This document shows, piece by piece, positions 2,931-57,953 of a stretch of 64,000 bases of DNA. Where the stretch lies: the NCBI RefSeq assembly GCF_000003855.2, contig NW_003101638.1, positions 3,458 through 67,457 of the forward strand, written 5' to 3'. The position numbers were made by a program, and so were the translations under genes. Every line of letters begins with the position of its first letter. Positions within the stretch are counted from its first letter, which is position 1. The notes under the pieces are model-generated. The model did not search any database and was not told the DNA's origin. It worked only from the letters and a program-made list of their open reading frames with translations. The stretch is from Blastomyces gilchristii SLH14081 (lineage: Eukaryota; Ascomycota; Eurotiomycetes; Onygenales; Ajellomycetaceae).

Positions 2931-3448
2931 CCTCTTCCGCTCACCATGGTGCAGACAGACTTACACCGTCATTTCGTATCGACGCCTATCCACCCAGGCA
3001 GAAGCGTCATGTGTCAGACAAAGATCCTAATCCAAGCAGGCGCATATCCGTGCGGCTGGATATTGATATTTGCGAGAAAATGGGGAGTGTCGCTGAGTGT
3101 TTGAATTATTAGTAGAGCCAATCACTGTGCTCCATATCTTCCCACGTAGGTAGCTATTGTGTTTCTTCCTGAGCCTGCTGGACTACAGAAAATATATATT
3201 CAGAGAGAGACAGGCGGCCCTTGAAAACAGTTTAAAATTATATTAATTCAAATCGTTTGGAGAACCGGGCCCAGAACCCTTTTTTTCGAGAAGGAAAAGG
3301 TAAAAAATGCTGAATAGTTTCTTCTTTAGTACTTGAAGCCAGTTGTGAGTCCATTTTCTTTTGTTCTGCGCTCGAAGGTGGGCCCAGCCTGCGAAACTAT
3401 ACTTTGTACTTGTTATTCCATCTCGAGCAAAACAAATGGACTTCATGA

Positions 3449-3496
3449 TTTTTTTTAATTTTTTTTTTTTTTTTAATTTTAAATTTTAATTTTTTC
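3449..3496. repeat. T-rich tract
   Basis: Runs of T broken by AA; a low-complexity tract in the left block with no other visible role. Confidence 0.9.
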
Positions 3497-6155
3497 CTGC
3501 TCACGCACGCTGTTGTGCGTTGGACCTTGAATGGCCACCTAATTCAAACTATTTAGCTGAATAGTACTCTGTAGCTCCTGTACGGATAATAGATATCAAG
3601 AACATACAAAACCGAAGTAGCAAGCAAGCAACGAGCAAGGATCTGCCCCGAATCTACAGTGTAGCATTTATTAACTATAAATAATATAATTTACACAGTC
3701 GTTTCCAAGGCGAAACACGGGCGAGGTGAGAAAATGGTAACATACCATCCTCCACCGTTTTTCAAAAGGAGTGACAATAGTTAAAAGTTTGCAGAACTTC
3801 ATATATGTCAGCGGAGTTGTCACATCAAACGCAGTGAAAGATTTTGTTGACATTGCTATTCTTTTCCCACCCACGGAATGACGGAACTAGGCAGGGAATG
3901 GTGATGATGATGAAATTACAATTACTTGATCTTTTCTGATCGTCCGGCGCAGCGGGTTTCTGAGTTTCCTTGGTTGTTTTCTGATGTACGGAGAACGGAG
4001 GACAGAAATGGAACAGAGATTCGCCGGGAATCATACATAGATATGAAATATCCATGGTTCCTCTACTCTCCGTATTTTAACACCCGATGTACGCATCAAG
4101 TTAATCCACGAAACACACGACACTAGTGCTAGGTTTAGTTTTGGTTCATGACGAGAATAAAATGGAGGATAGAAAGAAGGCATGATCACAAGGGCATGAA
4201 GAATAAAGTATATATATATGTATGTATGCCCTCTTAATTGTGATATGATGTTCAAGAACAGCTTTAAATGAAGGTTAACTGAACCATGGTAAATTACCCA
4301 GGCACAGGAACAGAACCAGAGACGAAAGATACGGGAATTATGTGGATTTTCAGAACGGTATTGATATCGTAACGCTGTCTTGGTACAGTCGTAAAGCATG
4401 AACCAGCAAACCTTAACAGGCCTAGTTTGCAGACCGTCGTTCTAGATAACAATAATTGATGATATCATTATTAAAAATCATGAAAATAAATAGTTGACCG
4501 TTGTGGAGAATAGACACGACGCGAAGTATTGCGTGGCCATTCAATCAGTACCAAGAGCCAATCCAGCCTGACCAATTAACTTGAAACTCTTTCTCTAATT
4601 CCCCTGTTCACTGTGGAGAATGAACACGGCATTTTTATCCTTTTTTAATACATAAATAGGCCTGCAAAAATCACAATTGAAAGGACAATTAGCAGAGCAA
4701 AAGAAGGGAAACACAAGTCCAAACACACGACATCATTGGATGCTGTTAGGGCCCTTCTGCTCATCTAAACTACATAAGCGCGATTCTCTCAAAATTTCCC
4801 GCGCGCAATGGCCAATCAGCGCGTCCCCAACCTACGGAGCTTTGCGGTATTCCACGGTCAAGTTTCAAACATTAGATGCCAGCCCTGCTTTTACTGGCTT
4901 GTGGTACGGTAGGTATAGCACCATCATACTCAGTTTTACTCCTTTCACTTTCCACTCCGACCTGCCTGAACGACAGCTCAGGCGCGGGATTGACAGGGCC
5001 TTCATATTTTCTGTTGTGGCTCAGCAGCAGGGGCGTATCGTATTGCATTGATCGTTCTTTGCTTCCGAGGATTTTAAGAGAATGAATTTACGTTAAGAAT
5101 ACGTTGAAAGAGATGGGAAAGGAGGAATGCAAATCCAGCTTGCTGTTCAAACGGACGTCTCCGTTATCTTAATTTACTTCGTAATGGCCTTTTCCTTCCC
5201 TACGCAGAGACCTGAATACCCAGGAGATTATTTACCCGACTCACTGATGATGATGATTATGATCAGGCCGAATGGTTTTCCGTCTGCCCTCGCATTTTGT
5301 TCTCTGTTACGGACAGTCCGTTTTATGTCTTGTTAATGTATTAAAACACGTATATTTACACGGTATCCTCATAACACATACGTACTGTCCTAGGATAGAA
5401 ACATCGAAACATTTAAAAAAATTAACAAGCCAAGATCCGCGCAATAGGGAAAGAAAGAAAGAAAACATATTAAAATTAAAGCTGTCTTAGAGGTGAACAT
5501 GTTCGTCACAAAACGTATGCAGGGGAAGAAGTGGTGAGTTTCAAATGTGTAAACACGCAGAAGCAAGGCTTCATTAGAGGTCCGTCCCTCAGCAAGCTAA
5601 GCCAACATGCCTCAGAGAAGGGAGGTCAAAAACCTCAGCTTCGACAAGGTAGGCTTCAAGGGGCCAGACATTTTAGCTGCATCTCTTCTCTCAATCAGCT
5701 TGTCTGGGTGTTGTTGTCTAGAGAAGGGTACATACCTAGGCGTAGGTGAAGCGCTTAAATAGCATCAACCACTCTTAAAATAGAATCTCTGATAATTTAG
5801 GTGTTTTTTGTTTGATAGAGGGATTTAAGTATTCTGTAAGAGTATTCTAAGAGCTTTAGTTCTTCATCATTGATATTCCCTACTAGACTGACCGTGTGAC
5901 CGTGTCTGAGATCAGGATCAGAATATTTGATGATCTCATTATCAATTCAACTGATCTCATTACACAGTTTTAACATTAGATAGTAGTCTTATACTGTCTT
6001 AGTAAGACTTACTGTCTACTCTTATCACATTTTTCAAATGAGATCATGATTTCTACTTCTCAATTTAAATTATTTTTATTATTTTAATTGACTTTAAATC
6101 TCATTTAAGTGTTATCAAAAAGTGTTACTTTTTAAAAAATTAAAAATAGTCTAAA

Positions 6156-6689
6156 TGTAATGTAGCGGAACTGAAGCGGTAGCTAGTCAGCGGCATTACA
6201 TAGAGATAGTTATTTAAGAAGCTGTATAAGTGAGCTTGACTATCTTGCTTGAATAGTGAGCTTATAGGCTACAGAGTTATTATAAGAATATCACAGATAT
6301 AATACTTAGTATACTAAGAAGATTATATAAGATATGCAGTAACTCTTGTATATATTTCAGTAGAAGAAAAAATAAATTACTGACTTCTTTAATAAGAAGT
6401 TAGTATCTAGCTATTCTATATAAATAATAAGTGAATACTCTTCTTTCATTTCATAAGTGAGAATAGTCTGAGTGATATCTCAGTAGTGTCTTACTATCAA
6501 GAAAAAGTAATCTGCTGATCTTGTATAAAAGTGAGATTCTTATATTTATCAATTGAATCTTTCTATAATATATCTGAATAATATCATAGAGTGATTGAAA
6601 ACTGGTTTAAATAGAATAAAATCATCTGTATAAAAGTGATGAGCTGTGTGAAACTGCAGCAGAGTCTTGATACAGTCAGAGATATAATA
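6156..6689 (-). repeat. R1 3' LTR (left copy)
   Basis: 534 bp, begins TGTAATGTAGCGG. By alignment with the right copy it ends at GATATAATA, where the right copy has GGTGTGACA, so its terminal CA has itself been mutated. It is much more AT-rich than the right LTR. Confidence 0.93.
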
Positions 6690-24840: not shown

Positions 24841-25072
24841 CTTCACTAAGAATCTGATTGTGATAAAGATATTAACACTGTTATTTATGAATTCTAGTCT
24901 ATAAGATAATGGATTTCTACTGAAATGAACAGTTCACAGTATATGTAAAGAGAAGAAGAAATCATGTTCTTATTAAAGTTAAAAAATAAGAAAACAGAAA
25001 CAGAGCTGTGAATATAATTTAGAGATTAATAAAGAAAAAACAAAGAAAACTCACACTTACATTTTCAATATC
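24841..25072 (+). other. G1 sequence between pol and the G2 insertion
   Basis: AT-rich with no recognisable frame; continues at 33318 beyond G2. Confidence 0.7.
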
Positions 25073-25239
25073 TGTGGTTCGGAAGAACGTACGACCGTCG
25101 GATAATAACGCGGCCGCTTCTGAACTTGCTTATGAATGTAAAGGGGCCATAGCGGCCACTAATTAATTTAGTGTATGATATATAAGAAGCCGGCGTACGC
25201 CTGTAATCGTACACTGACTCAAGCAACCTTTGAATCACA
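25073..25239 (+). repeat. G2 5' LTR, nearly unmutated
   Basis: 167 bp with about 13 CpG sites (gaacgtacgaccgtcgg, acgcggccgc). Compared with the 3' LTR it carries only one derived change, near 25217. Confidence 0.96.
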
Positions 25240-25580
25240 TCTGATAGCATGTCTAAAAACCGGTGAGAAGCACAGGCTTCTCCAGGGCATGATAATTCCA
25301 TCTATGAAGTGATTTGTAGTTATCATGCCAGTGTGATCCTAGAATGTCTCAAAAGATAGTGTATGAAGAGTGATGAGCAGAAGAGCATCTGATTGATGCT
25401 GCTTCACTTGTTGAGGAAAAACTCCACACTCAGGCGAATGCCATGTATGCAAATGAATGAGATGTGAAAAAGGAAATGAGAGTGATGAACCAGATTCAAA
25501 GAAGTCTGCTCTCTACTCAAAGGAAGAATAAAAAGAAGAGGTGATCATCACTGAAGTTGTATGATGATAACAGAAATCAT

Positions 25581-25640
25581 ATAACAATATAGTGATATAA
25601 TGATATAGTGATATAACAATATAGCAATATAATAATAGAC
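25581..25640. repeat. AT-rich short tandem repeat in G2 leader
   Basis: Repeats of a degenerate ~8-9-base unit (tgatata / caatata / gcaatata) between the LTR and gag. Confidence 0.8.
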
Positions 25641-25689
25641 ATCATATAATCAATGAGAAATCACTGAAATGAATATCTTCTCTAGTTAA

Positions 25690-27060
25690 TATGAACAACA
25701 CTCTTCTCTGCTATCTGAATCAGAAGATATGCAGAACCTCTTAGAGAGTTTACTTGAAGTAGTAAGAAAAGCAGCTGAAACTGCTGAACTGAAATTGAAG
25801 CTCTGTATATATATAAGGATTCTAAATGAGATCAAGGTCTTGTGTATGCAGTGACAGGCTGAGATGAAAGTCAAACAATAATTAACATTCACAGTGAATC
25901 AAGCATTCACTATGAAGAGCTTTGCTGATACAATCATCATCATTAATAAGAATAGAGAAAACCAGATCTTAGACCTGTAGTGAGAGATCAAACATTTACA
26001 CAGACAGATAACTATATCAAATCTGAAGATCTCATCATAATCATTCATAATCTCTTCAGAAGTATATACACTATCAGAGACTACTGTGCAGAATGAGAAT
26101 CTGAGCATGAAATATATCAAGTCAGAAGATCTGTCAGAATCATTATGCTTCAATAATGACTGAAAAAATAATGCTGTAATCAGCTGACTAAGTCAGATGT
26201 AATCATATTATCAGATTGAATATGAACTCATAGACAGATAGTTAACAGAATTTCAATAAGTCTTAAGATCTGCTGTGTTTCTACATAGAAAAGTGAAGTT
26301 ATTATGAATAACTGATGAAAAGATAAATCTTACAGACTCAGAGCAATATTCATTCTCATAAATATGAAATGAGTTTTTCAAATGAATATTACACAACTTT
26401 GAGAAAGTGAATATATAAGATAAGTGTTATAAATGCTTCACTGAGTGTAGATAAATGAGTAATCTTACATCATACTTTACATACTTCAGCTTACATTATC
26501 TCATATTGAATGAATAGCTTTCAATATCTTTCTGTTTACAGATCTTCATTCATAATCTTATATCTGAGTTGAGAGTGAAATAAAAATGCTTAATCTCACA
26601 ATCAGACACAGTGAAAGAAGTGTATAATATTCTCATTATATAGAAATAAGTGAGTCAATTGTAACAGAAAATACTGCAATCAAGTATATCTCAGTAGAGA
26701 ATAGATAATCAGACTTCTATAACACAAGTCACACACTCAGATGTAATGAATCTAGATCTGAATATCATTGCTAAAGCACTGAATGTTCTGAAAAAGAGAT
26801 TCTCTGAGTGAAAATCTTGATATTATAAGCATTGAGCTTGCTTCAACTATGAATATCAAAATTATGATACAAAAGATTGCACTCAGTGTGTGTAGTCAAA
26901 AGAAGCAAGAGAGTTAAAAAACTAGCAGAATCAGTGAGCTCAGAAACACTTGCTGATATTCTATGAAAAGTCTTCAAAGTGAAAGATATGTCTGTGTTAG
27001 ATGATTCTCTGAATTCTGCAAATATCAAGAGAAAGCAGGCTTCTGAATGAGATGTGAACA
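25690..27060 (+). pseudogene. G2 gag relic
   Basis: The plus strand opens with a coiled-coil-like frame (SSLLSESEDMQNLLESLLEV at about 25700-25760). It ends with a zinc knuckle of form C-F-N-Y-x-Y-x-N-Y-x-x-x-x-C at about 26840-26880, where a Cys and a His have become Tyr. Minus-strand frames here are shadows. Confidence 0.7.
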
Positions 27061-27089
27061 AGAATGATGAAATGAATATTCACCTCAAT

Positions 27090-30000
27090 GTCTTAAGACC
27101 TGAAATGTTAATGTATAAGAGACACTTGAATAAGAATTGAGAGATGACTGTAAAAGTGTTAACAGATATAGAAGCTTCTATACAATATATTAATAATTAT
27201 ATGATCTGAAGACTGAAAGAGATCTGCTGAGTGAAGAATCTCTGATGTATAAGATTATTTAATAACTGATATTTGATATCATCTGCAAGAGTAAGAGTTC
27301 TCTTGCACTTTGAAGAATAATCTTGCTATATTTGAGTATGAGAGCTATAGAATATGAAATATGATCTTATTCTCAGACTCAATTGATTTCAAAGGTTCAA
27401 TCTGCAGATTCAATGATGTACATGTTATATATAGTTAACTAGTAGAAAGAAAATAATTCATACAATTCTATCAACTGATATGAGAAGAACATTTCATGTC
27501 TCTGATATAGAAGAGTTAAATCTGCTTATACATTAATAAGCAAAGAGATTGATTTGCAAGACCTCATCTGAAAGCATTCTGTATGTTATACAGAACTCAG
27601 AAGTGAAGAAAATTAAGATAAAGAATATGTAAGAGAACAAGTGTATGAAGAAGCTTCTGAAGAAGTATGAAAAGATCTTCTAAACAGATCTTTCACTGAA
27701 ATTATCACTGAAATGAGAATTTGTACATGAGATTGACATGAGAGATGCAAAACTAGTTAATTAGAATGCATACTCTCTGTCATAAACATATCTTGAAGAA
27801 CAGAAGTATCAGATCACAGACCTTCTAGAATATGATCTTATACAACTCTTATCAAGTGCATGAGACTTTTCAGTTCTATTTGTGAAAAAGACAGATGAGA
27901 AGTGATAAATGTATATCAATTATTAAGCACTTAACAAGCTTATAATCAAGAATGAATATTCATTGTCATGAATTTGACAATAGTTGAATACAGTTGAAAA
28001 TACCTGATATCTATTGAAAATTGATCTTCTCTCAGAATATTGACAGATTCATATAGATAAACTGTCAGTCTCATGAACTGTGTTTAATATATAATAAGAA
28101 AAGTTCAAATTTCTGATAATATCATTCAGTCTGATAAATGCATTCATTATCTTTCAAATAATGATGAATATAATTCTTTATAAACAGAATGAAATCTTAT
28201 ATCTCATATATTCTGATAATATTCTAGTCTTTTCAAACTTATATAATAAATATCTGAAATATCTTGATGAAGTGCTTACAACTCTGACAGAGTATAAGCT
28301 CTATATCAAATTAACAAAGTATGTGTTTGAAATGAAAGAGTTGAAGTTCATAGAATATGTAGTAAGTGATGACTGTATATATCTCATTCTGAAGAAATTG
28401 AATGTTATAGTGAATTGATCACAGCTGAGAAATGTATATTATATATAACAGTTTCTTGAGTTAATCTCATATTACTGCAGATTTATCAAGAATTTCATAT
28501 GAATATCTGCACCACTCTCAGATCTCTTAAGAGAAATGAATACAAATCTGTGAAAGAAGAAGTTTCATTTAATTATCTGAAATACTGTGTGTGAAGAGGC
28601 TTTTCTCACACTGAGAGAGTATATAATAATATTCTCAGTGCTTATTTAACTAGATTGTGATAAACCTTTCTACATCAAGATAGATACATCTGAATGAGCT
28701 ATCAGAGACACTCTTCTACAGATGAGTAAGAACAGCAAGCTGCACTTAGTGACATACAATGATAGAAAACTATCAGACAGTGAGCTCAATTACTCAGTGT
28801 ATGAAAAGAAATTACTAGTGATTAAGCACACACTGGTGTTGTGAAATAGATATATTAATAACAGATATATAATAATGATAATTATAGATTATGAAAGCCT
28901 TATCTATCTATAATCAATAATAAAACCTTTCAAACACTTAGCATGTTGAATCTTGAAGTTTCAAGTGTACAATCTTCATATCAAATACTGAAAGAGATTG
29001 AACACTGTGATATCTGATATAATCAGTTGCAGACCTGATTTCATAGATGAGAGTTCTGTAAATCAGATATAAGAGAAGTTCATATTAAACACACTGAGAG
29101 AGTGTAAGGAATCAGAATGAGTGAATACAATGATCTCTCACTTGAAGAATAACAAGATATTAAATGATAAGTGTCTCATGAAAGTAGTAGAAGAAATACT
29201 TCTGAACTTCAAGCTGAGAAAATTGAAAAATGATGTTATGCTTTACTGTAATCTAGAATATATGAAAGCTCTCTATCTAGAATATTTATTTAGACATGAC
29301 TTGATAACTTACATGCACAAGGAATTCAGTCACTTAGAAAGCTCTGAACTCATGAGTGTACTTGAATCAAGAGTATACTGACCAAGCATGACTGAGAACA
29401 TTCAGATATACACTTACAAGTGCCTGAATTACCAGGTTATGAAAGAATCTAAGAAAGGATTAGAATATGAGAAAGTACAATATCAGATAAAGTGTATAAT
29501 ACAATCATTTAAATGATGAAAGATGAATCTCATAGACATATTACTGTGAATGTCAAATGAAAATTGATGAATAATCACTGCTATTGATTATGCTACTGAC
29601 TGATCAGTTGTGAAAGTGATTTCAGAGATGACAGAGAAGATGATAGCAAAGTTTCTACATAATAAGATCTATATTAACTATGAAATACTGCATGAGATTC
29701 TGACTGATAACAGTGTGAACCTTGTAGAAGAAGCAGTGAGGCATTTTATGAGTCAGTTACAGACAAGATATTATAGAACAATGTCATATCATCTGCGAAC
29801 AAACAGGAAGATAAAACACTTGAATGAAATCTTGAATAATATACTGATAAAATATCTAGTGAGCAAGCCTACAAGACTATGAAATGAATATCTCAGGCAG
29901 ATGCTATTGATTACACAGATTCAACAGCATGCAGTCTCCAAGCATTCATCATTCTACCTGTTGTATGAATTGCATCCGCGCATTCCAGAGAATGCTTTGA

Positions 30001-30470
30001 AAAAGGTGAGAAAGGAAACAGCAGTTGCAGATGCAGCAGGAACAGCAGTTACAGACACAACAGTCACAGACACAGAACCAAGATTAAAAGAGATTAGTCA
30101 TACACATGCAAAAGCTAATGAGTTACTTCTGAACTGTGCAATTCAATCAAAAAGAATACAAGACTCACTAGTTAAGAAATCAAGTCTTAAGATGAGAATA
30201 TAAGTTCTTGTATACAATGAGAGCCCTGAGAAGTTTCAACCTAGATGATTTAAGTCATATAAAATACTCAAATCACATTCTCTGAAAACATATATATTAA
30301 AAGAACCAGAGGAACAGATCTTATACAACTTAATAAATAATTCATAACTTATAAAAGTAAAGATACAAGATCTGAGCAGATTATAATTATCTACAGCACT
30401 ATTATCAGTATTGAAAAAGAAGAGACTTAGAATTGAAAAGTCTCACAAAGTAAGAGAAATCATAGACACT
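27090..30470 (+). pseudogene. G2 pol: RT, RNase H, integrase relic
   Basis: RT shows FSVLFVKKTDEK, INY-ALNKLIIKNEYSL and LKIDLLSEY-QIHID (27870-28060), then the catalytic box LIYSDNILVFS at 28200-28232, one Asp changed to Asn. RNase H has ELNYSVYEKKLLVIKH near 28785-28830. Integrase follows: HKEFSHLESS (29316-29345), TYKCLNYQV, core AIDYATDWSVVKVIS (29580-29625) and EILTDNSVNLVEEAV (29695-29740). A 100-codon frame stays open at 29901-30203. No chromodomain is seen; the C-terminus resembles KIQDLSRL, ending at about 30470. Confidence 0.9.
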
Positions 30471-31138
30471 TACAAATCAGATAATCTCACTTATTTCAAT
30501 CTTTTCACAATTATAAGAAAAGAATGAGAAGAAATGAAGAAATAAGGTAAATGTCACACTTCAATAAGTAATAAGCCTGTAGCCAGTTGTATAATAATGC
30601 ATCACAGACAGCAGATATAACATGATAAAAAGCAGTCTCAAAGCAGCAGGCTTGTATATGAGTCAGGTCACAGAAGAAAAAGAAATTCAGAGTTAAATTC
30701 AACTGTTTACATCAGTTCAATCATGAAGATCACAGAGAATGAACTATCTGAAACATCTGTGAATATGTGAGACCAAGTCATCTCAATTCCTGAGAATGCT
30801 CAGAGATCAGATGAGATTAGTTTTAATAAGCTATTCACTGTAGTGATCTGAGCAGATGAAGAGAGACAGTATAATGTGTGAGACAGAATCACAAAAGATG
30901 AAAGCTGCTGAATCTAGTCACTGAATACTATACTATATAGAGATCATATAAGAGTAGTGACTAGCACATAAAGAAAAAGTGTAAGAAAAGAAAAGAGATA
31001 ATGAATTAATCATCAACTGTAAGAGTTAACTGTAAAAGATAAATATTATTATATATACTTCATTCATTTTTATATATCACATGTTTAATCTATTTTAAAC
31101 ATCATATCATCTGAAAAATATCAAAAACAAAGAAAATC
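30471..31138. other. G2 3' spacer
   Basis: Decayed sequence after pol with no recognisable frame beyond short chance ones; the minus-strand frame at 30511-30702 gives nothing recognisable. Confidence 0.6.
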
Positions 31139-32564
31139 TCAAAACTCAAGATCTGTAAGAAATTTGAGAGCTGTAAGCTGCTCTTGTAACAATACTGTGT
31201 ATATCTCTGATTTCTCTATCACTCTGTATATGATATTAATGTCATTTATCACAAGATTGGCTGAAATGCTAATATAGAAATGTGTATACATACATGTAGA
31301 AAAATTGAAGAAGAGCATGAGATCTGCAGAATCAGAAGCCAGAACAGAAGAGACAGAGACAGAAGAAACAGAAGAAGAAGAAGACACAGAACTGAATAAA
31401 TAATAGCAGAAGTCACTCAGAGCTGAACACTTATAATCTGATATACACACAATCTTCTCTGCAGAGAAGAGAGAGAAAGTAATGAGAGAAGCTTAAGAAT
31501 AGAAGAAGATAGTCTTAGTGATGTTATTATCTTTGATTAGAATGATCTCTGATGCTGAAGTAACTAAGAATCATTATTAGCATATAAAAATCATAAAATC
31601 AGAGATGAGAACAGTTACTGAATGAACACCTGCTGGCCTTAGAATTGTACATATAATTACAACACATACAAGGCTTCTCAGAAAGAGAGAGAGAGATACA
31701 GAAAAATGCAGAAAGCAGAATACAGTGTGTGAACAGCTCATTCTTATAACAACATCTCAGACAAGATGTACAAGTCTCACATCTATGAGTGTAAAAGAGT
31801 ATAACATCTGCATTCTCATTTCTGAAAATATGAATTTCTTTTGTCTGCATCATGAAGTCAGATAACAGATATCAGAGAATAGACTAATACAGATCTATCA
31901 TTCTGAAGAAATTTATCAGAGTGAATATCTCTGTGATGTTAAACTTTACAGTTGTAAAAAGTTTCTTGATATCTGTGAATACTATGACTTTATATATAAT
32001 AAAATCCATAATGATTTCTCCTAAGAATAGAAAAATCAGTATCAGAAAGAAAAGATAAAAAGAAAAAGACTTATAATCTTGATACTGTTGAAGAGAGAGG
32101 TGATTCTCTGATATAAATGAATGATTATCTCATCACAAATATTTAAAATGAATGTAATAATCAGTGTCTGTGACTGAGCTTCAGATAGTTGTGTCATATG
32201 TTATCTTTGTGTAATAAATCATTCTAGAGGTTGATAAGAAGGGCGGGAGTGTACACACTGAGAAATGTGGTTTATCAAGCCTACCCAACATCTTCTTGAA
32301 ATGAGGAGAGCTAGTAACAAAGGCAGTGATGGGAGCAGAAGTAGCGGGAGTAGAGGTCATGGGAATAGGGGTAGCAGAAGCGGGAGAACCAGACACAGAG
32401 GCAGGTGTAGAAGATTGAGAGGAAGTGACAGAGAAAGAAACAGAGAGAGCAGGAGAAGATATAAGAGACTCAGTCATACATGATACAGACAATTTCTTCA
32501 TTATCATGTTCTTCAAGTTCTTGATCAATGATTCAACATTGAGATCATGATCATCAGCAGACAC
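31139..32564 (-). pseudogene. Antisense frames in the G2 3' region
   Basis: Three minus-strand frames follow one another. 32564-32181 (127 codons) begins MSADDHDLNVESLIKNL and has a Ser/Thr/Pro/Ala-rich middle. 31853-31599 has about twelve cysteines (CETCTSCLRCC, then KPCMCC, ending SRCSFSNC), a C-x2-C pattern that could bind zinc. 31450-31139 is Ser-rich. Bases 32240-32460 keep GGG and CC runs unlike their neighbours, so this strand has suffered less. I cannot name the protein. A plus-strand Arg/Ser-rich frame (32265-32483) is its shadow. Whether the three pieces form one gene is not shown. Confidence 0.45.
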
Positions 32565-33146
32565 AGATCTGTCAATGTATGAAGATTCTATGTGAATTAA
32601 AACATCAGCATCTGTAACTATACAACATGATCAGGAAAACATAATCAGATACCACTGAAGAAAAGAGAATCAGAGATGTATAAGAAGGTGGAGAAGATGT
32701 GTCATTCATAGTAGTATATTCTGATAATTATTAGAAGATAAACAAGTTCTGATCACATTTCATAATGTGTTACACTTACTGCTAATGAACTGCTCAGTAT
32801 GAGCACTATGAGAACACTTGTTATGAGAACAGAGAGTCATCATCAGGAATGCATACAATGTGATAGATGAACAGATAAAAAGAGTTGAACAGAAGAAGAG
32901 ATAGAAATCTTGAATGAGATAGTAACATTCAATGATGATGATGATGAAGAAGATGATTGAAGAATGAAAAAAGTTAGTGAATAAGTGATATAATATAGTG
33001 AAAGTTTGTTTATAAAGATGTACATGAGATGCTAGTCAAATCAGAGATAGATCACATAATTATAAACACTAGTGGCACACTAATCTGCATGAAGCTAGGG
33101 CGGATATCATGATTACATGAGTGTGACTGAATCTGATGAGGGAGAA

Positions 33147-33313
33147 TGTGATTCAGAAGAATATATGACTGTCAGATAATAACACAGCTGCTTCTGAACT
33201 TGCTTATAAATGTAAAGAAGTCATAGCAGCCACTAATTAATTTAGTGTATAATATATAAGAAGCCGGCGTACATCTGTAATCGTACACTGGCTCAAGCAA
33301 CCTTTGAATCACA
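33147..33313 (+). repeat. G2 3' LTR, mutated copy
   Basis: 167 bp, no indels against the 5' LTR. 18 of the 19 differences are derived here, all C-to-T or G-to-A. Confidence 0.96.
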
Positions 33314-33317
33314 TATC

Positions 33318-35179: not shown

Positions 35180-37687
35180 CTCTATCAGATAACAATTTTT
35201 GATAACACTAACTTTCTAATTCAAAGAAAATCATGTGAAAATAATCATATATTAGTACTCTGATTTCATAACTCTCATCTGATAACTTTTATGAATAATT
35301 ACTTTATATATATATATCTCTGAATCTTTCTCTTCAATCAATTAAAAACTCTTAATTTCAAACACTTCTTCAAATACTTAATTCAAATCTTCATATTTCA
35401 CATTGATCATGTCTTCAGTTCAATCTTGAGACACACTACAAAGTTAATATACAACATCTAGAATCAGAGTTAAAGAATTATTAAAGAGTGTCTCTCACAG
35501 TGAATGCATAAACTAGTACAAACAATCTTGTATTTATGAAAGTTATATGTTATTATATTGATGAGAACTGAACTTATTAAGAGACATTAATTGAATTTAA
35601 ATCATTGATCAGTAGTCATACTGAGAATTATATAATAGAGATATTAATAACAGTAATTAAAAACAACTATTGAGATATTAGTCTCAGTGTTCTTACAATT
35701 ATAACTGATAATACTGCAAATAACTACACTATAATGAAGAGCTTGAAGCAAAAATTAGCTTTGCATTTCTGAAAGAATAAACAAGGTCATATTCTCTGTA
35801 TTACTTATATAATTCAACTTATGATATAAACACTGATAAAGAATCTTAACATTGAGATAATAAATAATGAGATGACTGATTCTTGAGATGAGAATGAGAT
35901 GAAAGTGATTACTTAAGTAACTTTTATATTCACTTTATAAAAGATAATGTTTTTTAATAACACTTTTTAATATTACTTTTTGATAATGCTTTTTGATAAC
36001 ACTACTGTTAATTTTGAATAGATTGATTAATAATTTAAATATCACAGATTCAAAATATTACTAATATAATTTGTATCTTCTCTAAATAATAACAATAATT
36101 CTATGATATTTAATAAATAAACAAATCAGTCGCATCACTGAATATGATACAGAATATTAGAATATAGTGAAGTTCAATATATGAGATAACTATTCAGACT
36201 CTTCAATTATATTAAATAATTGATTATTAAGTGCAATACTCTGATCAGAAAAAGATTCATACATTGAAACTTTCTAATATAAAGTAAACTCAGTTGAAAT
36301 ATGTGATTGATTTACTGTTTCAGTTTTATAAGATAATAAAGACAGTCTCAATCACTTGTACATCAATACTGCAGTCAGTCTGATAGTGTATAACATTTTA
36401 TTTACCTCATCTGAGAAGCAGTTAATCACTGAAAAAGAAATTCAGTCTGAGATGATGCTATAGCACAGACTATTATTACTGTAAGAGATAAACTGACATA
36501 TTATTACAGCAAACTGAACAATCTTTTACAGAGTACTATGCTGTAGCAGCTCTACTAGATCTCTCTTATTAAGTTAATATCTACACTTCTCAAGATTGAA
36601 CAGAGGAGAAATAAGACTTATATATTAAATTAACTCAAGACTACTACAATGTCAACTATCAGAGATTTGAATAAGCAGATGTTAGAGATGTGAAGACAGT
36701 GAAATACAATTTTCTAGTAAGTAATAATCCTTGATAACACTTCATATTATATAGAACTATAATACTAACTTTGAAACAGAACTTACATACATTGATTACA
36801 ACTGAAAATCAGACAAAACTATATACTTATAAAACTGAATTTAGTCATTATCTTCAAGATAATCTGATAAATTTATACATCAAATCAATTCTAAAGTTAT
36901 AAAAAATTGTTGAGAGTACATATTCAACTGTTACACTGATAGTGTGTGATATTCTAATAATTTCATTGACAGAGATGAGAATGAAGTAAAAGTTCAACTC
37001 AAGCTGAGATATTTATTACTATTACTGAGAACAATTACAAGAAGAAATAATCAAGAAACTCATGATTATAAAACATGAAAATATCAGACAGTTTAATACC
37101 TCTGATCACAGTATATCAGAGAAGTGTAGTTTTTATGAAAAAGTGAAGAATAAACTTATACAAGAATATATTTAGTTCTTTCATAAGCATTATCAATAAT
37201 CATTGTCAAATTCTGATTATATAAGCAATCACTGAATGAACTGAATAAGACTGAATTTAATCTTCAATCTCAGTCTCATTCTGATTTTGAAAGAATGATC
37301 ATCTTTCACAGTCTATTGTGAGAAATTACTCTCATTTCACTGTTCTTGCATTAAATCTGGTCATTTTTCACATCATTTCTCTCAGAAATGATTCATTTTC
37401 AGATTTTTTTGATGCTTGGTCCTGGTGGGACTCACATCAAGAAATGTATGAGACCAGTTCAAATGAAACTAAATGTGAAATTCATGATTCCGTCAGCCAG
37501 TCTAATTATGATCTTATTTGAAAAATGTAATACGAGTAGACAGTAAGTCTCACTGAGATAGTATGAGACTACTATCTAATCTTAAAAATGTGTAATAAGA
37601 TAAGTTAAATTGATAATGAGATTATTAAATATTCTGATTCTGGTCTCAGACACGGTCACACAGTCAGTCTAGCTACTGATATATAAC

Positions 37688-38192
37688 TAGACTGACCGTG
37701 TGACCGTGTCTGGAACCAGGACCAGATTTTTTGATAGTCTCATTATCAATTCAACTGATTCCATTACACAGTTTTAACATTAGATAGTAGTTTTATACAG
37801 TCTCAGTGAGACTTACTGTCTACTCTTATTACATTTTTCAAATAAGATCATGATTTTCACTTCTTAATTTAAATTATTTTTATTTCTTTAAATGACTTTA
37901 AATCTCATTTGAGTGTTATCAAAAAGTGTTACTTTTTAAAAAATTAAAAATAGTTTAAAAAAACCTTAAAATGTCTAAAAATAGTAACTTTATGCTAAGA
38001 ATGAAACTAAATGAGATTAAATAAGATCACTTTCTCATTTTTTTCAAGTCATGATTTCATTTTAAGATCTGATATATAGTCACTTTGCATGTTTTTTTAA
38101 TGACTAGTCGCAGCGGGATTCACGGCAAGAAATGTATGAGACCAGATTCAATTGAATCAAATGTGAAATTCATGGTCCCGGCGGCCAGTCTA
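37688..38192. mobile_element. MITE-b, 505-bp hAT-type MITE
   Basis: Intact from TAGACTGACCGTGTGACC to GGCGGCCAGTCTA, with the perfect 8-bp TSD tatataac (37680-37687 and 38193-38200). It is inserted in H1 and in opposite orientation to MITE-a. Both ends keep G/C-rich bases while its middle is AT-rich. No coding frame. Confidence 0.95.
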
Positions 38193-45298: not shown

Positions 45299-45804
45299 TA
45301 GACTGGCCGCTGAGATCATGAATTTCGTATTTGATTCTATTTAATCTGATCTCATACATTTCTTAGTGTGAATCCTGCTGGGACTAATTATTAAAGAAAT
45401 ATGCAAAGTGACTATATATCAGATCTTAAAATAGAATCATAACTTAGAAAAAATAAGAAAGTGATCTTATTTGATCTCATTTAGTTTTATTCTTAGCATA
45501 AAGTTACTATTTTTAGACATTTTAAGGTTTTCTTTAGACTATTTTTAATTTTTTAAAAAGTAATGCTTTTTGATAATGCTCAAATGAGATTTAAAGTCAT
45601 TTAAAGCAATAAAAATAATTTAAATTGAGAAGTGGAAATCATGGTCTCATTTGAAAAACGTGACAAGAGTAGACAGTAAGTTTCACTGAGACAGTATGAG
45701 ACTACTATCTAATGTTAAAACTGTGTAATGAGATCAGTCAAATTGATAATTAGATCATCAAATATTCTGGTCCTGATCTCAGACACAGTCACACGGTCAG
45801 TCTA
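45299..45804. mobile_element. MITE-c, intact 506-bp hAT-type MITE
   Basis: TAGACTGGCCGCTG at the start and CGGTCAGTCTA at the end, with a perfect 8-bp TSD gtcagatt (45291-45298 and 45805-45812). It is inserted in the RNase H region of the LINE and gives the reference length for the family. Confidence 0.96.
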
Positions 45805-46203
45805 GTCAGATTTATAATGATCAAATGAATCTTGAACTGATTTTAAATTCTGTTATAAAGATTCAAAAGAGAAGAATATTAAAACTGGTAATTCATCTGC
45901 ACTGAGTTCCTGCTCATATGAATATTCATAGCAATGAGTTGACTGATTCAGTGTCAAAAAAGAGTTCAGAATTAAGCAGATCTATTCAAAAAGCAGTGTT
46001 CTGATCTTTTATAAAGAGAAAGATAAAAGAATCTTGTTTAACCAAGTGAAAAGAAAGCTGGCAGAAACAAAAGAAGAGTATACATTATTCAAGATTTAAG
46101 ACAAAACCGAAGTGAAAATCTTGTTTAATTAAATGTAAAAAGAAAATATCCTCATCTATAATTCAGCTGAAACTAGAATATGATTATTTTAAATCTTATA
46201 TAC

Positions 46204-46484
46204 TGTAAGAGGCGTACGCCGAATAGATCAGTATGATATTTATAGGTCTTATATAACAAAGTGGAAAACATTAGAGAAGAAAAGAAAGAGAAAGTGTGAG
46301 AATTGATGATCAGAGTGAATATTTATACGCATATGTAGTGATATACACGGTGGAACTTCGAGGCGGAAGAATAGAGGTTTTTGTACATAGTGAAGGTTCA
46401 GAGTGAAAGAATAGAAATTTCATAGATTTTCAGCTGAGAATTGATGAAATAGTCTATATAATTGATCAGGCACAGCTCATCACA
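46204..46484 (-). repeat. G3 3' LTR
   Basis: 281 bp, TGTAAGAGGCGTACGCC to CTCATCACA in plus reading. The palindrome ggcgtacgcc at about 46211-46220 is intact. Confidence 0.93.
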
Positions 46485-46499
46485 TTAGTCTCTTCTCTC

Positions 46500-49400
46500 T
46501 TTCTTAATTGTATATAGCTCTCATCGGTCAAGAGCTGTGATCTCAGATAATATGAAACTCAGAGTGCAGGTCAGATGATTGTAGCTGACTCATTTCATAA
46601 GATATTATCAGTTATAACTGTGAGATCTCTTATCAAGAATATCTTCAATCTCTCATTCAAGTGTGTTATCTTCTTCTATGATCTCTGATAGCTGTCAGTC
46701 ATAAGTCAGTTGAGAAGAGAACAGATCAGTGATAGCACAGCAGAGTAAGCTTATATAAAAGATATTATGAATCTCTGATGATGTGTCAAGATAGTAGTTA
46801 TGACTGTCTAGAACTTCTATCACTTTATATTTTATATGATGATAATTCAGTGTGTGAGATGAGTGTGTGATCTGTATATTCTTAAGATTCAATCATATCA
46901 GATCTTCTATCTTATATTGCTCAGTGAGGTCTTAGTGCATATTGATTTAATCTTCTTAATTCTGTTTAGTGCTTGCTATAAAGGCTTCTGCTCAATCACA
47001 GACATCTCAGAGTTTTATTACTATATTGTCAGTGATCTGAATCAGACTGTAGAGATTTGATATGAAATATATAATCTCTAAAAGATTCAGTACTTTCATA
47101 TAATATCTGTATGTGAGAAAGAACAGGCTTTTATCTATTGAAACAGTATCTCAGTCATTAATAGTGACTTCAGTGTATAGAAGAAGATCATATCAATTAT
47201 CTCATAAGTGATTATAGAACTTATAAAGATAATTCTTTACAGTCTGAATTATTCATTCTGATGCATCATCAGTCTCAGAGTGATAGACAGTTGATAAATA
47301 GTGTATAATCTTGAGAACTTGACAGATTCTTGTTCAGAGAGTGCTTATGAATTGACAGCTCTGATCTGATACTATAGATCTCAGCAATTCATGCATCTAA
47401 TAGAATGAGCTTTTTAGAAAAGCTTTAGTAACTTGTTCAGTATTCATTCTATCACAGAGTTTTAATATTACACTCTTACTCAATCAGTTCACAATGATCA
47501 GAACATTTCTATAATTCTTACTCTCAGAGAGATTAACAGTGCAGTCAATTATTACATCTTATCAGATTCTATCAGAGATATTGAGCAGTTTCAGCAGGTC
47601 TTTTCTACAGTTCTTTCATAAGATGATGAAGAAACAATAGTTACAGTTTCAGATGAAATGTCTGATACTGTTTGATATCTCAGGTCAGTAGAACTCTTGA
47701 GATATCATTTAATACAGTTATTTATAACCTGAATAACTAGTTATACAAGAGTCATGCATCTCTTGCATTATCCAGATGCATAAGAGTTTGAAGTGAGAAA
47801 CTCAGTGTCATTCACAGAATCATAGAGTGTTATTATCATTGATTGAACATTCTGAGATGTCAATTCTTATATATAGTTCTGGAGAAAATCAAGGTGCTAC
47901 TTATTATACTGCTTCAATGAGTGCTTGAAGAAGTTCATCAGTTCAAGCTGCTGTATATCATAGTTTATCTAATATAGCTTCAGAAGGAGTTCAGATATCA
48001 GTGACAGTTCTAATTGAAGAAGTATATATAGTGTTATAAGCTGTTTCATATTGATCAACTAGTATCTTCAGATTCAAGAGTCAGTGCTCTTAATTCATTC
48101 AGTGAGTATCTGTTACATTGAATGATATATCTTACTCTCATTATGAGAGAGCATCTGTCATTGAGTTCTAGCTGCCAGAATAATAGTGTATTATAAAATG
48201 AAAACAGCTTAAGAACTCAGATTATTATATCTGTCATTCAGTGAGTTTACAGATAGTTGTTCAGTGCTTGAGATTCTTATAATCTGTGATTATCTCAAAA
48301 TCAGAGACACTTCAGAGTTCAGAGTCTTATTCTTCTAGACAATGTATAATTATAAGAAGTTTCTTATTATAAATCTCATAGTTGCATTCAGTGAGACTCA
48401 GTTTCTTAGACATGAAGACACATGATTATAAGACATCTTTATTATCATATTACAATATAGCTTCTTCTGTGACATAGTCAGAGAAATCAGCTTCAACAAC
48501 TATCTTGTAATCAGAATTGAATATTATCAGTAGAGAGATATTAATGAATATCTTCTTTATTCATATAAATGAAGCTTCAGTATCTGCTGATCATTGAAAT
48601 ACTGAGTCTTTCTTAGTAAGTTCTGTGAGTAATCTTGTGATATCTGAGAAGTTTTGTATAAATTATCAATAGAAGTTAGTGAATTCAATGAAGCTTCATA
48701 CATCTTTCACAGTATATGAAGTCTTTCACTTGAGAATAGCAGAGACTTTCTCAGAATTCATTCAAATTCTCTTATCAGCTTCTATGATAAAGTCTAGGTA
48801 TTTTATACTCTTGACTTCAAAATCACACTTATCAATATCTATTGATAGTTCTATCTCTTGTAATTATTATAATATCTTTTACACATATTCTTAATATTCT
48901 TTTCTGAATCTGTCAGTGAAAATGAGAATGTCATTTAGATATGCAGATGCAAACTTATTAAGGAAATCTCAAAGTGTTCAGTTGATATACTTCTGAAATG
49001 TACTGAGAGCATTAGCTAGTTTAAAGAGTGTAACTTCTCATTCAAAGAGACTGTAATATGTTCAGAATGCTGTAAGCTAGTTATCTTCTTCAGTGATATA
49101 AATCTTATGAAATAAAGTGATAACATCTAGCTTTGTAAATCATTGAGCTCATCTGATATATACTAGAATTTCATTAATAAGAGATAAGAAATAACAATCT
49201 TTCTTTATCAATCTGTTCAGATCTTAATAGTTCACACAGAACTGAAGTTCTTTATCTGACTTCTTTGTAAAGAGAATAGAAGCTGCAGTGAAAGAGTTAC
49301 TAACATGTATAAATCTCTTATTCAACAGATCATTGAGTGTCTTCTGAAAAAGAAGAAGTTCATCTCAAGATATATTATAAAGAGAGCTTCACAGAGATTC

Positions 49401-51600
49401 AGAGTTCTTATCATTCTTCTTTTCTAACTTGATACTGTGATTCACTTCTAAGTCTTGTAAAGAAGATATATTCATAATATTATCTTATTAAAAGATATCT
49501 AGATATTTATGATATTATTAAGAGAGTTTTGTGTGAGAATCTGTTATTATAGTATAGAATAACTTTGCTAGAGCTTTCTTAATATCAGTCAGACTGATGA
49601 AATAGATTCATACATAATTCTGCTATCAGTGACTTTGTCAGTGACTCTGTCAGTAGTTTTGATAATGACTTCTTTTTCAGAGCATTTTATAAGTGTTGAC
49701 AGAGATCTGTGTAAGATTCATAGTCTTGTGAATATTATCTTCATGAATTCTATTATTGTTAAAGAATATTAAGCTTCTGTTTTAAGCATTTAATACAATG
49801 CCTTATTCAGATAGTCAGACAAGTTCTAGCATGAGATCATAGTTAAGATTATTAACTTCATATGCATAGAGATCTTCATATTGATATTCTCTGACATCTA
49901 TGTTTAGTTTCATTATATAACAAGTATGAATGTCTTTTGAACTATTAAATTCTGCAAGAAGTCAAGATCTTGATAAGAGAATACACTAGAGGTTATAACA
50001 TCTTACAATTGAAGATTTAATCATTATATAATAATATAGACTGCTGTCTATCATAGCTTTTATATTATACATATTATTCATCACAGTAGATATAAGAATC
50101 ACATTCATTGTCATTTTCTCTTCAAATTATCATTATCTGACCTCTTTAAGCCTCTGCTTGTAAATTTGAACAGGAGTGAATCTTTTCCCTGTTTTCATCA
50201 GAACATTCTCATAGTTATCTTTCAAATTCTTCTCTAATATAAAATGATTGATGCAGACAGGCACTGATTCATTCTTTGAGCAAGAAGATATATAGACTGA
50301 TTAACAGTTGAAAGTAATATACTCTGATCAGTTACAGTTGATGTACACTTCTTATTAATATTAATCAGTGACTTCTTCAGAAGTAATTCTAGAGACTCAG
50401 AAGCCTGTTCAGACAGCAGAGACCCTTGCTTATGTATAGATATTTAAGTCTACTCAGTTCATAGTATCTGCATGATTGTTGTTATTTCTCAGCACAGGTA
50501 TATAAGTGACTGAGTTATTTCTCAGTATAAGTATGTGAGTATAATATCTTCTATCACTGTTCTGTATACTCTTGAGCTTGATAAGACAGTCATTCAATGT
50601 CTGAAGCTGTGTGCAGAAGCCTTCATAAGTCAGGTTGTTGTTTACACTTATAACAGTCTGTAAGAGTTCAAAAGTTAATATCTTATTGAGTATACTAATC
50701 TTCATTTAATTCTTTCAAGATTGATTATCTGCTTCTAGAATCTTGATGTCAAAGTCAGGAATGAATGTTGTAAGAGAAGTGTTTCTCTGTTAGACACTCT
50801 GTAATCAATTTAACACTTTCTGTTGCATGACAGTGTCTTGAAACAGAATTTCAAGATATTTGATCATATTGTCAGGTGTTTGCAACACTGATTCACATGC
50901 TTTCATTCCTGACTGAAACTTCTGTTTCACATGATTCTTTAATCATTCATTGATATATCAATCTTGATTGATCAGTGAATCAATGATATCTTCATTCACA
51001 CTCAGTTTCACAAGCATTTTCATCCTTCATAATGAGTAGAGAGTGAGATCAGAAGTATTGAAATATGCAGAAGTATCTAAGCATTCTTTCAGTGCCTTTG
51101 TATTCAATTCTGTAGATGTTGAAATTGCATGAGTTTCTTGTTGAATTAATTGTTGAATTTCCTTGTATTAGCATTGTTGAGTTACATGCATATCAGCTAT
51201 CTATTGCTGTTGTAATTTCAACATTGCTTAGAGTCACTGTGGCACTGCATCTATGCTCACATTCAAGAGTTCTCTCATATTATCAGTAGACATAGCTGTA
51301 TCATTTATTGAATGAGTGTAATTGTATGAATATCTCATATGTCTGTGTCAGAACTCTCAGGTCTTTCACTGATATTATCTTTGTAAGATCTTGTTCTCTT
51401 TGTAAGATCTTGTTCTCTTTGTAAGATCATGTTACAGGGTCAGAGTGACTGGTAAGCAAGCTTCTATCTGAGAACTCAGTGTCTGTTTAACTGTTTAATC
51501 ATTTTTCTATTTCTTACATATTGTTATGTGTTCAGATATCTTCTTGATAAATAATTGTTTCTAATGAGAATAAGCATTTCTAATAAGAAGATGATGAATG
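46500..51600 (-). pseudogene. G3 gag-pol relic
   Basis: On the minus strand: gag with MKISILNKILTFELLQTVIS and FCTQLQTLNDCLIKLKSIQ (50705-50570), homologous to the G4 gag; RT and RNase H at about 49500-48300; integrase at about 47900-46900; and the integrase C-terminal YKVIEVLDSHNYYLDTSS...ISLLCCA at 46830-46740. Stops everywhere. Frames on the plus strand (46863-47060, 48679-48894) are shadows. Confidence 0.88.
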
Positions 51601-51609
51601 TTTTTCAAG

Positions 51610-51889
51610 TGTAAGAGGCCTACACTAAATAGATCAGTATAATAATTATAGGTCTTATATAACAAAGTGAAAAACATTAGAGAAGGAAAGAAAGAGAAAG
51701 TGTGGGAATCAACAATCAGAGTGAATATTTATACATGTACACAGTGATGTATGCGGTGGAGCTTCGGGGTGGAAGAATAGGAATTCCATAGGTTTTCAGC
51801 TGAGGATCGGCGACCGAGAATCGGAGCGGTAGGAATCTGTGGAGTGTAACAGAATAGTCTATATGATTGATCAGGCGCAGCCCGCCACA
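51610..51889 (-). repeat. G3 5' LTR
   Basis: 280 bp; the part at 51750-51889 keeps CpG (gatcggcgaccgag, gcgcagcccgcc), in contrast to the 3' copy. Confidence 0.93.
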
Positions 51890-52401
51890 TATACAAAGAT
51901 TTAATGATAGATTTAATTGAACAGAATGCTCAGTCTGCAATGTAAATAAAAATCCTGAGTATATTGTAAGGCATTGTGCACTATACAATAATCTCAGAGC
52001 CAGATTGAAGAAGAAGTATGATTTAAATCAATTAAATATGAGATTCTTATTCTTAACTGAGACAGAAATTAAATACTTAATAGACTTTCTATCAGAAACT
52101 CAAGTAGCTATAAGAAAATGACTAAATTCAGAAATATCTGAATATGAAGAGGTGGAAATTGATTAGATATAGTCTGTTAAAACAGCTATATACTATCTTT
52201 TAATAATTTTGTTTTATTATAGTCTCTCTTTACTTTACTTTTTCTTTTCTGTTCTTTTCTATCTATCTATTTAATGTGTCTATCTTTAAGACTATGTTCT
52301 CTTTTCTTTTATCATGATATTATCAAATAATTTCAAAGTATCAGAAGGTGTTAAAATACTGTAATTTCTCAACAGTTTTTATATTCTGAGCTGAAATTTT
52401 C

Positions 52402-52522: not shown

Positions 52523-52626
52523 TAATAATAATACTACCGATTATTCTGGGGGTGAATAAATACTACTATAATAAAGAGCTTGAAGTAAAAATTCTTTTTT
52601 TTTTTGAAAAATAAAACAAGATTATA

Positions 52627-52884
52627 TGTGGCGGGCTGCGCCCGATCAATCATATAGACTATTCTGTTACACTTCATAGATTCTTCCATTTCACTCTCGA
52701 ACACGTACACTCCGATTCTCGGCCATTCTCAATCGCTGATTCTCAGCCATTATATACATGTATAAATATTCACTCTGATCACTGATTTCTACACTTTCTC
52801 TTTCTTTCCTTCTCTAATGTTTTTCTCTTTGTTATATAAGACCTATCAATATAATACTGATCTATTCAGTGTAGGCCTCTTACA
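52627..52884 (+). repeat. G4 5' LTR
   Basis: 258 bp, TGTGGCGGGCTGCGCCC to GGCCTCTTACA. It keeps more G/C at its start than the 3' copy. Confidence 0.94.
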
Positions 52885-53199
52885 CTAGAAAAATGTTCAT
52901 TGTCTTCTTATTAGGAAATGATTATTCATGCATTGTCTTCTCATTAGAAATGATTATTCATTGAGAGATATCTGAATGTGTAATGATGTGTAAGAAAGAG
53001 AAACACAGTTAAGCAGACACTGAGTTCTCAGATAGAAGCTTGCTCATCAGTCACTCTAGCTCTGTAATAAGATCTTATGAAGAGAGTAAGATCTTATAAG
53101 AGAATGTCAGTGAAAGACCTGAGAGTTCTGACACTCAGATGTATGAGAATACAATTACACTTCTTCAGATATCATACATCTGATAAAATGATATAATCA

Positions 53200-54300
53200 T
53201 GTCTAACAATAATATGAGAGAACTCTCGAGCGTGAGCATAGAGATAATATCACAGTGACTTCAAGCAATGTTGAAATTACAACAGCAACAGATAGCAGAC
53301 ATACACACAACTCAATAACTTTAATATGAAGAGATTTAATAATTAACTCATGCAATTTCAACATCTACAGAATTGAATACAAAAGCACTGAAAGAATGCT
53401 TAGATGCTTCTGCATATTTTAATGCTTCTGATCTCACTCTTTACTCATTATGAAGAATGGAAGTGCTTGCAAAACTAAGTGTAGATGAAGATGTCATCAG
53501 TTCATTAATTAATCAAGATTGATATATCAATGAATAATTAAAGAATCATGTGAAACAGAAGTTTTATTCATGAATAAAAGTATGTAAACCAGTGTTATGA
53601 ACACCTGACAACATCATCAAATATCTTAATATTCTGTTTCAAGACACTGCCATGTAACAAAAAGTATTAGATGGATTACAGAGTATCTGACAGAGAAACA
53701 CTTCTCTTACAACATTCATTCCTGACTTCAACATCAAGATTCTAGAAGCAGATGAACAATCTTGAAAGGATTAAATGAAGATTAGCATGCTTAAGAAGAT
53801 ATTGACTTTTGAACTCTTACAGGCTCTTGTAAGTGTAGATAAAGACCAGACTTATGAAGATTTCTGCACACAGCTCCGGACATTGAACAACTGTCTTATC
53901 AAGCTCAAGAGTATACAGCACAGTGGCAGAAGATATTACACTTCAGTCACTCATACACCTGCACTGAAGAATAACAATAATGCAGATATCATGAACTGAA
54001 TAGATTCAAATGTCTATGCACAAGCAAGAGTTTCCACTGTTTGAACAGGCTTCTGAATTCCTGGGATCACTTCTGAAGAAGTTGCTGATTGATATCAACA
54101 TGAAGTATACATCAACTGTAACTGATTAGAACACATCACTTTCAACTGTCAATCAATCTATGTGTCTCCACACTCAAGAGAAAGACTGGCATCTTCTCAA
54201 TTGAGAGAAAGATCAGTGTCTTCTCGTTCAAAGAATGAATCAGCACCTGTTCACGCCAATCACATTACAGTGAAGAAAGATTTGAAAGATAATTACAAGA
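53200..54300 (+). pseudogene. G4 gag relic
   Basis: An N-terminal coiled-coil region (about 53230-53400) is followed by capsid sequence ending in the 74-codon open frame at 53775-53999 (MKISMLKKILTFELLQALVS, TYEDFCTQLRTLNN). A degenerate zinc knuckle follows near 54085-54150. Confidence 0.82.
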
Positions 54301-54399
54301 ATACTCTAATGAAACAGAGAAAAGATTAGCTTCTGTGCAAATTTATAAACAGAAGATTGAAGAGATTGAATGATAACAATTTGAAGAGAAAATGATAAT

Positions 54400-57950: not shown

Positions 57951-57953
57951 TAA

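Follow-up and report, generated by a model that had tools for sequence, protein, structure and literature searches.

Classical repeat-induced point mutation (RIP) in Neurospora prefers cytosines in CpA, and one of its hallmarks is that mutation tapers off where the homologous tract ends. In the accessible part of a survey published in 2025 and covering 1,239 fungi, RIP-like defences are stated to share this CpA preference (PMC12543289). CpG-biased RIP-like mutation is described, in the accessible portions of two further reports, for Aspergillus nidulans MATE and Tuber melanosporum (CpG and CpA) and for Microbotryum (CpG, TpCpG) (PMC2621366, PMC4352252). We analysed a 64,000-nucleotide stretch of Blastomyces gilchristii SLH14081 (the window; contig NW_003101638.1, positions 3,458 to 67,457) containing G2, a long terminal repeat (LTR) element at window positions 25073-33313, and followed its repeats through the genome (74.8 Mb in 75 contigs), by whole-genome pattern counts and in about 300,000 bases of extracted sequence. 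Transposon copies in this genome have been ruined in their many hundreds by C-to-T changes that took CG first, then CC and then CA and left the outermost stretch of each repeat alone, which points to a homology-sensing defence. The process responsible is probably a RIP-like, homology-dependent C-to-T mutation of repeats on both strands, with the target order CpG >> CpC > CpA > CpT.

The two 167-bp LTRs of G2 (25073-25239 and 33147-33313, both +) are flanked by copies of a 4-bp target-site duplication, TATC (25069-25072 and 33314-33317, +), and a polypurine tract precedes the 3' LTR (33135-33146, +). The internal part (25240-33146, +; about 7.9 kb) has 9 CpGs and no open frame longer than 150 amino acids; an open reverse transcriptase fragment (28098-28415, +; RVT_1, E 2.8e-9) fixes the sense orientation. 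Realignment of the LTRs base by base (2 x 167 bp) gave 19 transitions, 0 indels and 0 transversions, with CpG as the context in 11, CpC in 6, CpA in 2 and CpT in 0, the same counts that a sequence-only reading of the window had reported. Set against the sites available on both strands, 11/26 CpG, 6/17 CpC, 2/18 CpA and 0/16 CpT cytosines were mutated. Cytosines before C or G were hit in 17/43 cases and those before A or T in 2/34 (Fisher p = 0.001); CpG also differed from CpA (p = 0.04), while for the pair by itself CpC versus CpA was not significant (p = 0.12). The changes were strongly asymmetric: 18 of the 19 fell in the 3' LTR (binomial p = 8e-5), which retains 3 CpGs, all in its outer third, and one fell in the 5' LTR (13 CpGs; at the outer edge). 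A 149-residue, Ser/Thr/Pro-rich open frame lies antisense to G2 (32181-32630, -) in sequence where CC and GG are commoner than in the bulk of the G2 interior; a Pfam search with it gave no match.

The same order of targets was observed in other copies. Thirty LTR loci were picked by similarity to the intact 5' LTR, and 29 of them (all but L011) entered the LTR comparison as 5' LTRs together with five 3' LTRs, one of them partial (157 bp). Between 3' and 5' LTRs the mutated fractions were CpG 0.49, CpC 0.21, CpA 0.15 and CpT 0.03, and the background among 5' LTRs was CpG 0.09, CpC 0.06, CpA 0.12 and CpT 0.03 (non-independent pairs in both cases). CpG and CpC stand far above that background, CpA only slightly. 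CpG was highest and CpT lowest in all five 3' LTRs and CpC exceeded CpA in four, the exception being L030b, where CpA (0.33) stood slightly above CpC (0.30); a suspicion that the G2 pair might be an outlier thus fails. In a second pair from a single element (L025/L055), sites that read C in the 5' LTR and T in its 3' partner numbered CpG 8/22, CpC 2/15, CpA 0/19 and CpT 0/18, and sites in the opposite state CpG 6/18, CpC 1/10, CpA 1/22 and CpT 0/22.

The interior of the element was compared among 25 of the 30 loci (L011, L012, L015, L030 and L034 were left out as solo, nested or rearranged). Only 3 CpGs were left in 29167 bases at element positions 501-1667, and the 70 CpG-derived dimer columns held CG 0, TG 716, CA 586 and TA 434 times. 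Transitions made up 97% of 46915 pairwise mismatches, and C:G to T:A transitions were found on both strands (TG 716, CA 586). APOBEC-like editing of cDNA, which would hit one strand, was rejected on this ground, and also because an inverted-repeat DNA element (below) is affected. In interior columns with C in at least one copy, the mutated cells amounted to 0.77 for CpC, 0.35 for CpA and 0.10 for CpT; when 13 or more of the 25 had to show C, they amounted to 0.35, 0.23 and 0.04, and CpC > CpA > CpT held at all four C-state thresholds. At element positions 141-500 the loosest rule gave CpC 0.63, CpA 0.15 and CpT 0.16, and stricter rules gave CpC > CpA > CpT. CpA is therefore a real target, weaker than CpG and CpC. 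The "not CpA" of the sequence-only reading is too strong, CpA being hit in repeat interiors. Whether a CpG-derived site had turned into TG or CA was nearly independent from one copy to the next (median sharing 0.57), which indicates that mutation came after dispersal.

Base composition was examined in the window and in a genome sample. Over window positions 6001-61000 the observed/expected ratios (O/E) were CpG 0.11, CC 0.28, CA 1.18 and CT 1.48, as against 0.81, 1.00, 1.12 and 1.04 in the undepleted, GC-normal stretch at 1001-5800, the internal control; at 20-24 kb the ratios were 0.00 for CpG and 0.05 for CC. The wide loss of CC and CG with persistence of CA that the sequence-only reading had described is borne out by these values. 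The 3457 bases that precede the window on its contig (C45:1-3457) have no G or C and are apparently N. The genome sample consisted of 19 of 20 loci (L054 was all N), divided after their composition had been seen. Eight AT-rich 10-kb loci had O/E values of CpG 0.10, CC 0.29, CA 1.19, CT 1.47 and TA 0.82, and 11 GC-normal loci had CpG 0.85, CC 1.05, CA 1.08, CT 1.01 and TA 0.78. Among these 19 sampled loci, the AT-rich ones, where many repeats align, were depleted in CpG and CC and the GC-normal ones were not. In its accessible text, PMC4595289 reports 56.6-63.0% repeats for Blastomyces assemblies and GC-poor, isochore-like tracts derived from Gypsy elements. The classical RIP indices in the AT-rich loci were 0.85 (product) and 1.43 (substrate), compared with 1.6 and 0.2-0.3 in the large RIP-affected regions of genomes tabulated in the portion of PMC7882544 consulted.

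These data bear on two simpler explanations. Decay by methyl-CpG deamination alone would be confined to CpG and blind to repeat edges; it was rejected since CpC is the second target and edges are spared (below). Ancient classical CpA RIP joined to ordinary methyl-CpG deamination would account for the approximately one third of cells mutated in interior CpA columns, yet the AT-rich loci show CpA/TpG undepleted (1.19 vs 1.08) and TpA hardly raised (0.82 vs 0.78), CpC is mutated more than CpA, and CpA has its lowest mutated fraction (0.05, at 141-300 bp) in that part of the inner zone with the fewest mutations, such that CpA loss follows rather than precedes CpG loss. We regard this combination as largely refuted and its residual probability as very small. 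It was one of two options left by the sequence-only reading; the other, a RIP-like process with a different target, is favoured.

Of the 30 loci chosen for their likeness to the intact 5' LTR, all but one turned out to be 5' LTRs themselves. In these 29, the CpGs at LTR positions 8-43 were kept in 23-29 copies, as compared to 0/5 3' LTRs (except position 43, kept in 1/5); at positions 136 and 140 the relation was reversed, with CpG kept in 1/29 and 0/29 5' LTRs but in 3/5 and 4/5 3' LTRs. Since the 30 loci had been selected by similarity, the comparison was repeated with degenerate sequence patterns counted over the whole genome. The LTR left end occurred, in any state, 994 times, with all three CpGs intact in 310; where it followed a polypurine tract and hence belonged to a 3' LTR, the CpGs were intact in 0/274, against 310/720 in the remainder (Fisher p ~1e-54), a class that, like its counterpart for the right end, also contains unrecognised LTRs of the other kind and solo LTRs. 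The right end occurred 1022 times, with both CpGs intact in 186; they were intact in 7/535 where internal sequence followed (5' LTRs) and in 179/487 of the remainder (p ~1e-56). Reversed-pattern controls returned 0 matches in each of the eight genome-wide pattern searches. In a complete listing of C1:1-5.96 Mb, the left CpGs were kept in 0/24 3' LTRs and 17/37 5' LTRs. Whether one and the same sequence was mutated or escaped therefore depended on which of its ends faced outward, and the asymmetry of the G2 pair fits an effect, unnoticed in the sequence-only reading, of distance to the edge, by which CpGs survive mainly near the outer repeat edge.

The sparing of repeat ends lay mostly within ~50 bp and in some cases reached ~160 bp, and mutation strengthened inward: the CpA fraction mutated was 0.05 at 141-300 bp and then 0.23, 0.26, 0.38, 0.40 and 0.32 (the last at 1401-1667), or 0.32-0.40 beyond 800 bp from the edge. 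The fading at tract ends expected of RIP was thus found, in the form of reciprocal edge sparing. In the 25 copies, CpG density was 9.2 per 100 bp inside the spared edge and 0.6 in the flank outside. Because the spared edge abuts flank that is already depleted, regional chromatin or heterochromatin does not explain it, and the arrangement argues for a mechanism able to sense how far homology extends. A euchromatic location had been considered for the copies at L043 and L041 and was dropped, much of both flanks being depleted. The one apparent solo LTR (L011; target duplication GTAT), the single case bearing on a minimum repeat length, had CG at 18/18 tabulated sites. In three of the 30 LTR loci (L011, L022 and L033) a direct repeat of the LTR's opening 20-29 bp stands at the left boundary, near position 1500.

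Spared ends were also observed in other repeats of the window. Two copies of a second LTR family, G4, lie in opposite orientations at 46204-51890 and 52620-58211. The first keeps its CpGs outward in both LTRs (left, positions 10-161; right, 145-274 of 281), and the second is similar (left, 14-164; right, 150-252 of 265); for the two together, 7/12 CpGs of the left LTRs and 0/17 of the right LTRs fell within LTR positions 1-140 (p = 0.0005). A 507-bp terminal-inverted-repeat element, with TAGACTG ends and ~8-bp target duplications visible in several copies, has two full-length copies in the window (37687-38192, +; 45299-45805, -). In 10 copies matching at least 470 bp in the sampled DNA, one with a divergent right end, CpGs survived mainly toward the ends and had largely gone from the centre: 26/38 at less than 25 bp from an end, 1/20 at 25-49, 11/30 at 50-74 and 4/20 at 75-99, followed by 1/10 at 125-149, 0/10 at 200-224 and 1/30 at 225-249 bp. 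Read case by case and without statistics, several CpG clusters in AT-rich loci also start or stop at repeat boundaries.

Two explanations specific to LTR elements can be weighed against these repeats. Protection of the 5' LTR as an active promoter had suggested itself when 29 of the 30 cut-out LTR loci were 5' LTRs; it was dropped in view of the two G4 copies, both LTRs of which keep CpG outward, of the 3' LTRs, which keep outer CpGs that 5' LTRs have lost, and of the spared ends of the 507-bp element. If instead mutation were guided by nascent transcripts, the 5' U3 and 3' U5 of an LTR element would escape as untranscribed, and the reciprocal LTR pattern would be predicted. Against such guidance, the 507-bp element is too short for a transposase and has spared ends as well, and the gradient of intensity runs more than 1 kb into the presumably transcribed part; we consider it improbable.

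The genome encodes candidate enzymes for a RIP-like process. A PF00145 search gave four matches at three loci, and an NCBIfam search added nothing beyond Pfam. The first locus (L035; gene open, 1561-5262) has DNA_methylase, BAH and DUF7893 domains; it matched DNMT1 (6e-41 at best) far less well than the solved structures 9bap and 9baq (E 4e-156 and 3e-155), whose chains are labelled just DNA (cytosine-5-)-methyltransferase and which we take to be Neurospora DIM-2. The second (L036) encodes a RID homologue, RID/DmtA: a first-exon stretch is identical at 482/485 residues to the C-5 cytosine methyltransferase DmtA of Blastomyces dermatitidis ATCC 18188. A SET-domain gene adjoins it (5149-6372, -). 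The third (L037) has methylase fragments and a SNF2 domain, as in DNMT5, and is probably DNMT5-like; the match contains two stop codons, probably introns. A search for homologues of RID, DIM-2 and Masc1, proposed along with the sequence-only reading, thus yielded RID, DIM-2-type and DNMT5-like genes. The accessible text of PMC12543289 gives Dim2 as nearly absent from eurotiomycetes, with which the open DIM-2-type gene contrasts.

Methyltransferase genes are also compatible with the main rival explanation, in which repeats are methylated as in methylation induced premeiotically (MIP), by a RID/Masc1-type or DIM-2-type enzyme acting on CpG and CpC, and then deaminate slowly and spontaneously without an active mutator. 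The accessible portion of PMC4352252 attributes CpG signatures to methylation with subsequent deamination, and since the copies look saturated, a burst cannot be separated from a drip by age. However, this explanation needs both the choice of CpG and CpC and the geometry of edge sparing, that is, homology sensing in any case. Strand-wise bursts would produce strand bias above that of shuffled data, and the bias between copies did exceed column shuffles (2/2000) and hints at such bursts, although shared ancestry, which was not removed, can mimic it. We judge methylation with slow deamination to be unlikely, though less so than transcript guidance.

The homology-dependent, RIP-like mutator is favoured over ordinary methyl-CpG decay because CpGs survive at outer repeat edges. 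Such a mutator would act on paired homologous tracts and fade at their ends, with homologous DNA needed on both sides for a cytosine to be reached; first hits would remove CpG and CpC, and later rounds would reach CpA in repeat centres. RID, DIM-2 or both, judging from their presence among the encoded genes, may carry out the mutation in the sexual cycle. More tentatively still, and with somewhat less than even confidence, we suggest that Blastomyces, perhaps with its relatives, runs a form of RIP in which RID or DIM-2 has come to target cytosines followed by G or C, that repeat edges (approximately two thousand LTR ends of one family) record the footprint of homology recognition, and that mutation requires some 50-160 bp of matching DNA on both sides.

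Several observations weigh against the RIP-like reading. The order of targets is itself unlike the CpA preference of classical RIP. The per-site LTR profile is biased by the selection of the 30 loci for similarity to the intact 5' LTR, a bias that the genome-wide pattern counts do not share. Retention does not fall evenly with distance: in the 29 5' LTRs it was 1/29 at site 85, 0/29 at 104 and 16-22/29 at 119-126, and in the 507-bp element it was lower at 25-49 bp than at 50-74 bp, while central CC was kept in 10/18 cases. The remaining G4-type LTRs in the sampled loci match the edge pattern less clearly, and both LTRs of the pair L025/L055 were mutated about equally (10 vs 8). At LTR positions 1-140 the loosest column rule reversed the order (CpA 0.38, CpT 0.22, CpC 0.10); that rule also admits columns whose original state was probably T, and stricter thresholds were run to gauge the effect. 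With C in at least 8 copies the reversal was gone (CpG 0.10, CpC 0.03, CpA 0.03, CpT 0.01). Strand clustering along copies was weak (0.514 vs 0.489, sd 0.012), and none of the available copies showed a single round of hits.

The findings have consequences for how fungal repeats are scanned and dated. Scanners based on classical RIP indices would probably score AT-rich Blastomyces DNA as unaffected, which suggests that indices built on CpA and TpA can pass heavily mutated DNA as untouched. LTR-divergence dating is affected too: the accessible text of PMC11540331 dates LTR insertions to medians of 38 and 45 million years, and by the same method our arithmetic dates the G2 pair to ~59 million years, though it has 0 transversions. 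Pairwise among the 25 copies, transversions amounted to 0.43% and transitions to 13.5%; on the assumption that between a third and a half of neutral changes are transversions, and with the rate unchanged, the copies would have diverged for ~4-6 million years. The extent of homology required by a mutator has otherwise been studied with engineered Neurospora constructs, and the repeat-edge footprint could serve as a natural, genome-wide assay of it.

CpG targeting in repeats is already known elsewhere, and CpG loss in Coccidioides repeats was reportedly seen by Sharpton in 2009. Neither the context order nor edge sparing was found for Blastomyces in searches of the open literature or in main-text passages of PMC4595289 and PMC11540331; in the accessible text of PMC4595289, the only RIP terms are the name of an assembler option and entries among the references, and in that of PMC3203195 (Paracoccidioides) the terms RIP, repeat-induced and CpG were not found. 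The same searches of the open literature yielded no report of an ascomycete that carries RID and DIM-2-type genes and loses CpG first and CpC second, and none of the reciprocal edge footprint. The target order contradicts the general statement of CpA preference in the accessible part of PMC12543289.

Compared with described systems, Blastomyces resembles A. nidulans MATE, Tuber and Microbotryum, as far as the available portions of those reports extend, in that repeats are mutated at CpG first. In A. nidulans and Tuber, CpG is accompanied by CpA, and in the Basidiomycota tested CpG is targeted alone and without RID, whereas in Blastomyces CpC comes second, in the presence of RID and DIM-2-type genes. 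Methyl-CpG deamination likewise turns CpG into TpG or CpA but predicts neither CpC as a second target nor edge sparing. MIP, as in Ascobolus, does not alone give mutations, which are present in the Blastomyces repeats. The RIP of Neurospora crassa, with its RID and DIM-2 pathways, is matched in the restriction to transitions, in C-to-T change on both strands of repeats, in the RID and DIM-2-type genes and in the apparent dependence on the extent of homology; it differs in that Blastomyces loses CpG and CpC before CpA, keeping CpA/TpG abundant and TpA hardly enriched.

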